From Staphylothermus sp. (GTDB lineage Archaea; Thermoproteota; Thermoprotei_A; Sulfolobales; Desulfurococcaceae), in the NCBI GenBank assembly GCA_021157925.1, contig JAGGVR010000018.1:1-34001 (forward strand): 34,001 nt of DNA. The letters are read 5' to 3'. Of the stretch, positions 1 to 32,540 are shown piece after piece. How positions within the stretch are numbered: position 1 is the first letter of the stretch; each line of letters begins with the position of its first letter. Position numbers and translations under genes: made by a program. A model generated the notes under the pieces. It had not been told where the DNA came from and ran no database searches. It worked only from the letters and a program-made list of their open reading frames with translations.

Positions 1-858
1 ATCAGTAGGCATAAAGCTCCTGATAAATTCATTAAGATACAATATAGTAATGGAAGAACACTCCTTGTCACACCTGAGCACCCAATACCTATTATCAAGA
101 AAGGAAGGATAGAGTTTGTAAGAGCAGACAAGATTTCTAAAGGAGTACTTGTTCCTGGCGTAATTAAGTATAGTTTATTCAGAGAACCTAGAGAAAATGA
201 GATAATAAATCATATCTTGGAGAAAATTGTCTTTGAGAAAAACGAACTACCATATATTGTAGCCGAGAACTATGATGAAGCTAAGGATCTCCAAGACGAA
301 CTCTTAGAGATGAATATACTAACATTCATAGTTGCGAAGAATGGTGTTTATAGAATCTATCCAGCAGGTCCTCGCTCACTGAGAGAGCTCTTATTCAAGT
401 TAGAGAATAAAGGCATTGAAATAGAAATAGATGAAACCTTCCTATCAGAAGTGCTTGAAGCCCATAAATATCCAGAGACCTGGTATGAAATACTCTATTC
501 CCTAGGCATAGGTGTTTTCCCATTAGAAGCTGGTGCGAAGGAATTAAACATTGTGATTGGTTGTATTAATAGGGTTGAAGCCGAGTTAAGAGCGTTATCA
601 TCAATACTTGATCAAGGCGGCTTCTCTGCAGATCTAGTTTATTTATCTCGTAAGAAAGAATTATTGGTGAAAATAAGGGATTCTCTCTTAGAGCTTAGAA
701 ACCGGGTAAAAGAACTAGAGGATGTTCTAGGGAAAGATATCGCAGTCCACATAGTAACAAATATCGAGGAAACTATTAATTATGATTCAGAATGGGTATA
801 TGATATAACTGTTGAGCCAACACACTTATTTGTATCAAATGGGCTCATTCTACACAAT
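1..858 (+). other. Intein within MCM, C-terminal 286 residues
   Basis: The visible part has the protein-splicing block B signature (Thr and His in TPEHPIPI, codons 24-30), a block F-like stretch WVYDITVEPTHLFV (codons 265-278) and block G ending in GLILHN, followed by Thr as first C-extein residue. These are the expected His-Asn/Thr residues for Asn cyclisation and transesterification. Block A lies off the window. The roughly 230 residues between blocks B and F show no LAGLIDADG-like pair that I can recognise; part of it is a charged, probably helical stretch near codons 215-250. It therefore looks like a splicing-competent intein whose endonuclease is absent or unrecognisable. The insertion follows the residues that are normally Glu-Gln-Gln in MCM, just before TVSIAKAGI. 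Confidence 0.92.
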
Positions 859-1668
859 ACGGTGAGTATTGCTAAAGCAGGTATTGTGGCAAGACTAAAT
901 GCTCGTGCTTCAGTGCTTGCAGCAGGTAATCCAAAGTTCGGGAGATATGATCATACACTTCCAGTAAGTAAGAACATTGATCTACCGCCACCGATTCTAT
1001 CTAGGTTCGATCTCATATTTATAGTGGAAGATCTCCCCAATGTGGAAAAGGATACACGACTAGCAACACATATACTAAATATTCACACTGACATAGACCA
1101 AGCCCGTCCCCTGATCGACACGAGCTTGTTAAAGAAATACATAAGCTATGCTAGGAGATATGTTAAGCCCAAACTAACAGAAGATGCTAAGAAGCTCTTA
1201 CTAGACTTTTATGTTAGCATGAGGATGTCGGGTGTTAAGAATAGTGAAACAAGCGATAAGCCACCAGCAATAGCTATTACGCCTAGACAGCTAGAAGCAC
1301 TGATTAGGTTATCAGAAGCTCATGCTAAAATGGCTCTAAAAACTAAAGCAACTATTGAAGATGCTGAGGAAGCAATAAGACTTATGTACAGTACTCTTAG
1401 AAAAGTAGGCTACGATGTAAAATCAGAAACAATAGACATAGACCTTATAGAACTAGGTACTCCTAGAAGTAAACAGATTCAGATGAAGGAGTTCACAAGG
1501 TTTATCGAGAACATATTGTCTGAGAAAGGCGAGGTAACGATACAAGAACTGTTCAAACTAGCAAAAGAGAAAGGATTTGACAAAGACTTCGTGATAGAAA
1601 TGATCAGAAAGCTTAAGAAGGATGGAATAATATATGAGCCACGTAGCGGAACTATAGCGAAAATATGA
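1..1668 (+). CDS. mcm: MCM replicative helicase, 3' part, interrupted by an intein
   Basis: The reading frame is open from base 1, so the gene starts upstream of the window. Codons 1-286 are intein; host protein resumes at Thr (859-861) with TVSIAKAGIVARLNARA, the pre-sensor-1 segment of MCM AAA+ ATPases. Then come the sensor-1 segment AAGNPKFGRYD, the arginine-finger motif LSRFDLIF, the sensor-2 region TPRQLEALIRLSEAHAKMAL and a C-terminal winged helix. In family terms MCM is the hexameric 3'-5' DNA helicase that unwinds origins and moves with the fork. Walker A and B must lie upstream, since this junction follows them in MCM proteins. The gene stops at TGA 1666-1668. No sign of decay is visible in the C-terminal host portion. 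Identity is very secure; the N-terminal half cannot be judged. Confidence 0.96.
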   Translation: MSRHKAPDKFIKIQYSNGRTLLVTPEHPIPIIKKGRIEFVRADKISKGVLVPGVIKYSLFREPRENEIINHILEKIVFEKNELPYIVAENYDEAKDLQDELLEMNILTFIVAKNGVYRIYPAGPRSLRELLFKLENKGIEIEIDETFLSEVLEAHKYPETWYEILYSLGIGVFPLEAGAKELNIVIGCINRVEAELRALSSILDQGGFSADLVYLSRKKELLVKIRDSLLELRNRVKELEDVLGKDIAVHIVTNIEETINYDSEWVYDITVEPTHLFVSNGLILHNTVSIAKAGIVARLNARASVLAAGNPKFGRYDHTLPVSKNIDLPPPILSRFDLIFIVEDLPNVEKDTRLATHILNIHTDIDQARPLIDTSLLKKYISYARRYVKPKLTEDAKKLLLDFYVSMRMSGVKNSETSDKPPAIAITPRQLEALIRLSEAHAKMALKTKATIEDAEEAIRLMYSTLRKVGYDVKSETIDIDLIELGTPRSKQIQMKEFTRFIENILSEKGEVTIQELFKLAKEKGFDKDFVIEMIRKLKKDGIIYEPRSGTIAKI

Positions 1669-31156: not shown

Positions 31157-31990
31157 GTGATTGCAATAGGGAGACGGAGAAAGAAAACAAAGAAAATGGA
31201 GGCTGATGAGAAAACAAGTGAAACCACGAGTGTTTCTACCCAGGTTAAGCCAAAGAAGAAGAGAAGCAGGAAAAAGAAGGCACTTGATCTAGATAAGTTA
31301 GTTGATTCGCTTAAGGATACTATTAGTGATTTTCTTGGTTTGAATATACTTGGTATTCCGGAAGAGTTAATCAAGAAAATTGTTAGGGAAATACTTGATG
31401 TTGTAATAACTTCATCTTCTTATAAGCCTAGTACGGATACTATTTTGAAGAGAATTAATCGTCACTTGGACGTCGTTAGGATGATAATTGCTGCTAGAAT
31501 GCTTGAACATATGAAGGATTTTACGAATGAACAGCTGGAATTCATTGTTTATTATGGAGGAAAAATGATTATTCCAGAAGTTCCCCGTTTATATAGGGTA
31601 CTTGTTAAGAAAAAGCTCTTTGACCTAATTGATTATCTTAAATATGTCTGGGAAAAATACGGACGACCCTCTCCAGTTAAGTGTCCCAAATGTGGTTTTT
31701 ACTCAGTTATGCCTGATTCTACTTGTTTTATATGTGGTTACACAGTTACGGATGAATATCTTAGAAAGGAATTGGGTTTCGACGAAAAATTCAGAGAATA
31801 TATTAAGAATGCTAGCGTAGCTGAGCTTCAAGAAATAATTAATATTGGTTTTGTTCTTGTGGATAAAAACAACATATATAATCCGAAATATAGGCCTAGA
31901 AAACCAGGTTATTATTTCCCAATATATTTGAAGAAGCGAGATATATTATTAATAAGCGAGGAAATATCAAGGAGAAAAATCAAGATATGA
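31157..31990 (+). CDS. Zinc-ribbon protein of unknown function with basic N-terminus
   Basis: The 277-residue protein starts with a very basic, probably disordered tail (RRRKKTKKM and KPKKKRSRKKK within residues 6-42), has a helical middle, and a zinc ribbon CPKCGFYSVMPDSTCFICG near residues 174-192. The C-terminus is mixed. I do not recognise the family; nucleic-acid binding is likely. The start is unusual: GTG 31157 lies inside the GGTGGGGTGA ribosome binding site, and the TTG at 31161 is out of frame and quickly stops. ATA 31166 is at the ideal distance, and ATG 31197 would delete part of the tail. TTTATAG at 31122-31128 may be the TATA box. The CTG-start gene follows 15 bases later. Confidence 0.74.
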   Translation: MIAIGRRRKKTKKMEADEKTSETTSVSTQVKPKKKRSRKKKALDLDKLVDSLKDTISDFLGLNILGIPEELIKKIVREILDVVITSSSYKPSTDTILKRINRHLDVVRMIIAARMLEHMKDFTNEQLEFIVYYGGKMIIPEVPRLYRVLVKKKLFDLIDYLKYVWEKYGRPSPVKCPKCGFYSVMPDSTCFICGYTVTDEYLRKELGFDEKFREYIKNASVAELQEIINIGFVLVDKNNIYNPKYRPRKPGYYFPIYLKKRDILLISEEISRRKIKI

Positions 31991-32005
31991 ATGAGGTGTT
32001 GAAAA

Positions 32006-32173
32006 CTGACTGAACGAGACTATGTTTTAAGGAAATTAAGCAAGATAATGTTCCTAGCTGGAAATGGATTTTACCAGACTATCGGGGAAAATAAAGTTGC
32101 TAGTAAACTATTTCTTGAGATCATAAAAGAAGCATATAAGGCTGAAAGACACATATATCAGATGAATAATTAA
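32006..32173 (+). CDS. Small protein with an apparent CTG start
   Basis: The frame from CTG 32006 to TAA 32171-32173 encodes 55 residues beginning MTERDYVLRKLSKIMFLAGN if CTG is read as Met. No ATG, GTG or TTG lies in this frame near the ribosome binding site GAGGTG (31993-31998), which is 7 bases before the CTG, the spacing seen elsewhere in the window. The first in-frame ATG (32051) has no such site and would leave about 40 residues. The product is helical and basic, with no known motif. The stop runs into the AGGTG of the next gene, so three genes (31157, this, 32187) form a tight operon. It may have been missed in other genomes because of its start codon. Confidence 0.6.
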   Translation: MTERDYVLRKLSKIMFLAGNGFYQTIGENKVASKLFLEIIKEAYKAERHIYQMNN

Positions 32174-32186
32174 GGTGTTGAAAAAG

Positions 32187-32540
32187 ATGCCAATATTAGA
32201 GATCAGTCATAGATCAGAGCTATTAAGAGCATTGCAGAGCAATCAAGTAGTCATTATAGAGTATTCAGATCCTGAAAAAGACGAGAGTAAGTCTTTCAAT
32301 AGAATTATCAAGATGCTTTCAAAATATGCTGATCCCACAATATTGTTTCTAAGAATTAATATTAAAAAATCAAATATAAGTTCAGAATTGCCACGATCAC
32401 CATGTATAAGAGTCTATTACAAAGGTAAAGTTATTTTTGAACAAAAGGACTTGTTTGGAAAAGAAGACATGGACCTCTATGTTTTGAGAAGAGGCATTAG
32501 GTCTGTTTTTAAAACATACAATATACCGCTAAGGATCTAG
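32187..32540 (+). CDS. Thioredoxin-fold-like protein without a CxxC motif
   Basis: The 117-residue protein reads as a thioredoxin-like domain: NQVVIIEYSDPEKDESK where thioredoxins have their active-site loop, LSKYADPTILFLRINIKK as the next strand, SPCIRVYYKGKVIFEQ as the cis-Pro-like strand pair, and a final helix. The redox pair is missing, so it would not be an oxidoreductase; a binding or scaffold role is more likely. ATG 32187 lies 9 bases after AGGTG (32173-32177). It is the last gene of the unknown three-gene operon and converges on the next gene with 2 bases between. Confidence 0.68.
   Translation: MPILEISHRSELLRALQSNQVVIIEYSDPEKDESKSFNRIIKMLSKYADPTILFLRINIKKSNISSELPRSPCIRVYYKGKVIFEQKDLFGKEDMDLYVLRRGIRSVFKTYNIPLRI

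Follow-up and report, generated by a model that had tools for sequence, protein, structure and literature searches.

The 55-codon ORF at positions 32006-32173 of the window (that is, the whole stretch of 34,001 nucleotides of Staphylothermus sp. DNA that was analyzed) is a real, conserved operon gene that is probably translated from a CTG codon at position 32006. This reading is based on the sequence, homology, synteny, the spacing from a Shine-Dalgarno (SD) sequence, and recurrence of the same arrangement in other genes, from which we infer initiation itself. Archaeal annotation normally permits only ATG, GTG, and TTG as start codons. Just these three are named as archaeal starts in a recent review (PMC7531240).

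The CTG site and its reading frame

The window derives from a MAG of 158 contigs with about 87% completeness. Considering that 16S rRNA was not found in this MAG, in line with its incompleteness, the anti-SD sequence was read from the 16S 3' end of a complete genome of the same family (G020). The features of the locus are given below, where L024 is another MAG of the same genus.

31157-31990 (+): upstream operon gene encoding a conserved 277-aa protein with a CxxC...CxxC zinc-ribbon-like motif (ORF list, synteny)
31993-31998 (+): Shine-Dalgarno sequence GAGGTG, complementary to the 16S 3' end ...GGATCACCTCC (sequence; 16S end from G020; identical in L024)
32000-32002 (+): in-frame TGA closing the frame upstream (translation; identical in L024)
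32006-32008 (+): CTG, putative start codon, 7 nt after GAGGTG (SD spacing, aligned homologue starts, conservation in L024)
32006-32173 (+): 55-codon gene, small predicted helical-hairpin protein (homologues, third-position changes, AlphaFold2)
32048-32050 (+): ATG, first in-frame canonical start, codon 15 and inside helix 1, rejected as the true start (alignment)
32187-32540 (+): downstream operon gene encoding a conserved, possibly thioredoxin-like (Trx-like) 117-aa protein; ATG 9 nt after AGGTG (synteny)

As an earlier note on this DNA had described, a 55-codon frame opens at CTG 7 bases after GAGGTG. Its 55 sense codons are followed by a TAA stop at 32171-32173, and the spacer between GAGGTG and CTG is TTGAAAA (31999-32005). 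Read locally in frame, the region is AAG ATA TGA ATG AGG TGT TGA AAA CTG ACT GAA CGA GAC TAT, and the TGA of the 277-aa upstream gene (31988-31990) lies 15 nt before CTG. The second TGA, at 32000-32002, is in frame two codons 5' of CTG, so that AAA and CTG alone precede the first canonical start. Because this TGA closes the frame, the first ATG, GTG, or TTG able to open it is the ATG at 32048, which the earlier note had placed three bases too far downstream, at 32051. Its remark that no ATG, GTG, or TTG is found near the site holds within the frame and fails outside it: GTG 31996 and TTG 31999 stand beside the site in other frames, and ATG 31991, although in frame, soon runs into TGA 32000-32002. 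At its homologous N-terminus, the gene has no canonical start in frame; the codon found there at a normal SD spacing (7 nt; the ATG optimum is about 6-8 nt in these genomes) is CTG, one position off ATG. The site is predicted to be unstructured by RNA folding (z = +1.3). A scan for sigma-70-type promoters gave about as many matches as chance would, the expected outcome in an archaeon.

The motif GAGGTG followed by CTG at a distance of 7 is by itself near chance, slightly above it, and too weak to decide the matter: among 145 GAGGTG sites in 605 kb of the same genome, CTG occurs 7 bases downstream 3 times (1.4 expected), and ATG at the same distance occurs 12 times (2.6 expected), with a peak exactly there. 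The case against chance comes from homology, synteny, and the recurrence of this arrangement in other genes. GGTG is also present 5' of the start in homologues from five genomes of the family (G020, G065, G107, G140, and G163); the distance from this SD-like sequence to the start is 6 bases in G020, G065, and G107 and 7 bases in G163, as for the CTG in the window. Separately, 12 bases (AGGTGTTGAAAA) are common to the start regions of the 55-codon gene (31994-32005) and the next gene (32173-32184), followed by CTG at +7 in the former and ATG at +9 in the latter. At the other end of the contig, its first bases seem, by eye, to fall within an intein-like segment (...THLFVSNGLILHN followed by T) joined to the C-terminal part of an MCM-type helicase (window 217-1668, +).

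Homologues, gene order, and position of the start

Whole-genome searches identified relatives of the 55-codon ORF in several other genera within the family (E-values down to 1e-13). The gene order PP-type phosphatase (PPase), 110-aa protein (p30731), zinc-ribbon protein, 55-codon gene, Trx-like protein, and a convergent gene for a 115-aa protein (m32543) is conserved in the other genera that were compared. Homologues of the zinc-ribbon gene are syntenic in G020, G065, G140, G107, G163, and G154 (95% identity in L024), and those of the 117-aa Trx-like gene are syntenic in the first five of these; no Trx-like match was found at the G154 locus, which is short and where the homologue of the 55-codon gene was located by reading the DNA. 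In five of these genomes the homologue begins with ATG (MENNDLGE... in G020, METNDLGR... in G065, MDERDQLIV... in G140, MQEESRKD... in G107, and MELDDSVE... in G154), and in G163 with GTG. In all six, the start lies 22-26 residues before a conserved FY, which is found 21 residues after the CTG of the window and only 7 after ATG 32048. In a multiple alignment of eight homologues, these starts line up with the CTG of the window, give or take a few codons.

This alignment bears directly on the first of the alternatives, namely that translation starts at ATG 32048 and yields a 41-aa protein, with the 14 upstream codons serving as an untranslated leader. Such a start would be the first canonical one in frame and the one that ORF finders report, and Met also occupies this position in G020, G065, and G140. 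However, the aligned residue is Ile, Asn, and Phe in G107, G163, and G154, respectively; the homologues start about 15-16 residues earlier; the SD sequence is 49 nt away from this ATG; and conserved residues precede it (K/R-L-x-K/R-I), conservation setting in near CTG and not at the next canonical start. In addition, an AlphaFold2 model built on the alignment is a helical hairpin (mean pLDDT 88.9; helices 3-19 and 30-53) whose first ten residues have a pLDDT of about 90, and a start at 32048 would remove most of helix 1. We thus consider this shorter product very unlikely. The earlier note had proposed that homologues beginning at the later ATG would speak against CTG, and their longer N-termini support the CTG reading instead. 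Its suggestion that TERDYVLRKL might be conserved is borne out for the second half, from about xVLRKL onward, and not for TERD, which is replaced by LADHD in L024.

The copy in L024 (90% identity) is informative for a second alternative, i.e., that the gene is decayed or mis-assembled and its canonical start was lost through mutation or sequencing error, as the fragmentation and incompleteness of the source MAG might suggest. Against this, the 21 bases from the TGA of the upstream gene through CTG (TGAATGAGGTGTTGAAAACTG) are identical in this divergent genome, with SD, spacing, and CTG unchanged. The ORF also stays open between the two genomes, and changes are concentrated at third positions (13 of the 17 substituted bases; over 48 comparable codons, 11 differ synonymously and 5 nonsynonymously), all of which makes decay or mis-assembly highly improbable. 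Entry from upstream, either by readthrough of TGA 32000 from ATG 31991 or by frameshifting from GTG 31996 or TTG 31999, is hardly credible: although ATG 31991 is in frame directly after the upstream stop and an AAAA run lies 5' of CTG, on which a frameshift might occur, none of the three triplets has an SD sequence at a usable distance or is common to the homologues in other genera, and readthrough would put MRC-K before the homologous N-terminus.

The 55-aa product had no significant match in Pfam, NCBIfam, or PDB sequence searches and could not be assigned to a known family by them. From synteny, one might guess that it is a small helical partner of the neighboring zinc-ribbon or Trx-like protein. 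The 277-aa zinc-ribbon-like protein had no Pfam or NCBIfam match above the cut-off, and the 117-aa protein showed sub-threshold similarity to thioredoxin.

Candidate near-cognate starts in other genes

We compared 605 kb of the window's own genome (about 1.58 Mb) with G020 (complete, about 1.58 Mb), keeping 564 non-overlapping homologous frames. A first homology scan in which antisense shadow ORFs were left in gave 657 candidates, mostly false; filtering reduced them to 47, most of which had a canonical start a few codons in, showed conserved upstream leader sequence, or were broken or partial genes. The test set consisted of frames with homology above any canonical start and with an SD sequence, amounting to 16 independent cases. 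A near-cognate codon was found 6-8 nt after the SD sequence in 11 of them, compared with 16% expected (binomial p = 4e-6); ACG accounted for 4 (p = 6e-7) and CTG for 3 (p = 1e-4), and neither AAG nor AGG was seen among the 16. We also ran a scan that was homology-free and required an SD sequence of 6 bases or more, an in-frame stop close upstream, 60 or more open codons, and no canonical start in the first 10; in G020 it detected 16 near-cognate codons at gaps 7-8 versus a mean of ~5 at control gaps (Poisson p = 1e-4), a control that is imperfect in that gaps 4-5, outside the control mean, give 11; a few of the matches at gaps 7-8 are probably antisense shadows. In the own genome and G020, about twenty genes besides the 55-codon one seem to start in this way, among them the following candidates.

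L081:7230-8108 (+), own genome: CO dehydrogenase FAD subunit (PF00941), ATA, SD+8
L091:2361, own genome: MGMT-like, CTG, aligned to TTG in G020
L072:3794 (-), own genome: radical SAM, ACG
L052:1825 (-), own genome: tRNA endonuclease, ACG, overlapping the upstream gene
L098:15347, own genome: ACG, from the homology-free scan
L046:13844 (-), own genome: ATA, from the homology-free scan
G020: oligopeptide ABC ATPase, ACG, coinciding in the alignment with ATG of the own genome
G020: TtuA, ATT
G020: 2-oxoacid oxidoreductase, ATT
G020: SLOG protein, ACG
G020: membrane protein, CTG
G020: TruD, ATT
G020: methyltransferase, ATT
G020: ABC ATPase, ATA
G020: DUF1156 protein, CTG
G020: 73-aa protein, CTG
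G020: L12ae, ATC

The same arrangement is thus found at the homologous N-terminus of other genes in the same and related genomes. CTG at +7 of the DUF1156 gene is kept in both G065 and G020. In TtuA of G020, read from ATT, the N-terminal LIM domain (model positions 1-26) sets in at residue 3, and a protein made from the first canonical start would lack it. Several cases are less convincing, such as ATA at G020 395586 and 779628 and the ACG of the tRNA endonuclease, which overlaps the upstream gene. Canonical SD-led ATG, GTG, and TTG starts of these genomes are alike in SD sequence and spacing range; the near-cognate codons of this collection are confined to 7-8 nt, whereas canonical ATG is common at 5, 6, and 9 as well.

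A precedent comes from the S. marinus genome paper, in which one gene, L12ae (Smar_1096), was reported without a valid start and ATC was proposed (Anderson et al. 2009, PMC2678158). The ATC of L12ae in G020 was recovered blind by our scan, whose design was independent of the published case, and serves as a positive control. L12ae has ATC with GAGGTG+7 in G065, G020, and G153 (the window's genus), ATA with GAGGTG+7 in G107, ATG in G163, and ATG directly before ATC in G140. Hence, judging from the genome sequences, this essential ribosomal protein appears to use a near-cognate start in the genus of the window too, with a spacing equal to that of the CTG. It was not found in the window's MAG by whole-genome search, in line with the incompleteness of the MAG. 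The S. marinus gene and the 55-codon gene come from the same family of archaea, lack a valid annotated start, have a start deduced from homology, and carry GAGGTG 7 nt before a near-cognate codon. They differ in that L12ae is an essential ribosomal gene with ATC (third-position mismatch) and was reported as a single exception, whereas the gene described here is small and uncharacterized and has CTG (first-position mismatch). No report of a broader near-cognate pattern beyond S. marinus L12ae was found in the open-access literature searched.

Proposed initiation and wider significance

Initiation at CTG might proceed as follows. Pairing of GAGGTG with the anti-SD sequence would place the 30S subunit such that its P site holds CTG, whose 7-nt spacing is optimal. 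Termination of the upstream gene, whose stop lies 15 nt before CTG, may assist if the two events are coupled. The initiator Met-tRNA would then pair with CTG despite one first-position mismatch, so the protein would begin with Met, probably at a yield below that from ATG. Other genes of the family probably follow the same habit, with CTG, ACG, ATT, ATC, and ATA serving as starts 7-8 nt after a good SD sequence. In bacteria, near-cognate starts such as the AUU of infC have, as one use, keeping expression low or self-regulated. The infC case is alike in that a Shine-Dalgarno sequence precedes an initiation codon differing from AUG by a single base, but bacteria initiate with IF3 and formyl-Met-tRNA, whereas archaea use aIF1, aIF1A, and aIF2. 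In Sulfolobus, aIF1 has been reported to favor discrimination against non-canonical starts (PMC6237735). A search of the window's genome and five relatives found this factor in all but one of them, the fragmented G153; its presence implies that the tolerance does not come from losing aIF1 and that no simple loss of fidelity explains the near-cognate starts.

Taken across genomes, these results make it likely that Desulfurococcaceae around Staphylothermus follow a relaxed start rule, in which CTG, ACG, ATT, ATC, or ATA, with AAG and AGG excluded, would be used when fixed 7-8 nt after a strong SD sequence, partly conserved across genera. The rule would apply to about 1% of genes, with essential genes such as L12ae among them, a proportion estimated by setting some 14 cases in G020, a complete genome, against an assumed total of about 1,600 genes. 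In L12ae, the conserved non-AUG start may tune expression. If this proportion holds for the family, standard gene finders would cut such genes short or miss them, and TtuA would lose its zinc-binding N-terminus. The archaeal aIF1/aIF2 machinery resembles the eukaryotic one. Non-AUG starts that occur naturally and are conserved in part would also provide a test of how far the archaeal machinery tolerates mismatches when the SD sequence fixes the position.

Two further observations were made during the comparison. The CO dehydrogenase FAD subunit gene is without a canonical start in both genomes, with SD+8+ATA in the own genome (L081:7230-8108, +) and SD+7+TTA in G020 (G020:C1:402167-403045, minus strand; in L124); TTA is two positions off ATG, and near-cognate pairing does not explain it. 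A MoaD-like gene of G020 (L104, about G020:C1:9,230-9,460, minus strand; reverse-strand index 1570539) has TGA where the orthologue in the window's genome (L087) has CGA (...FLA[R/*]AGDIVG...), i.e., an in-frame stop within a complete genome.
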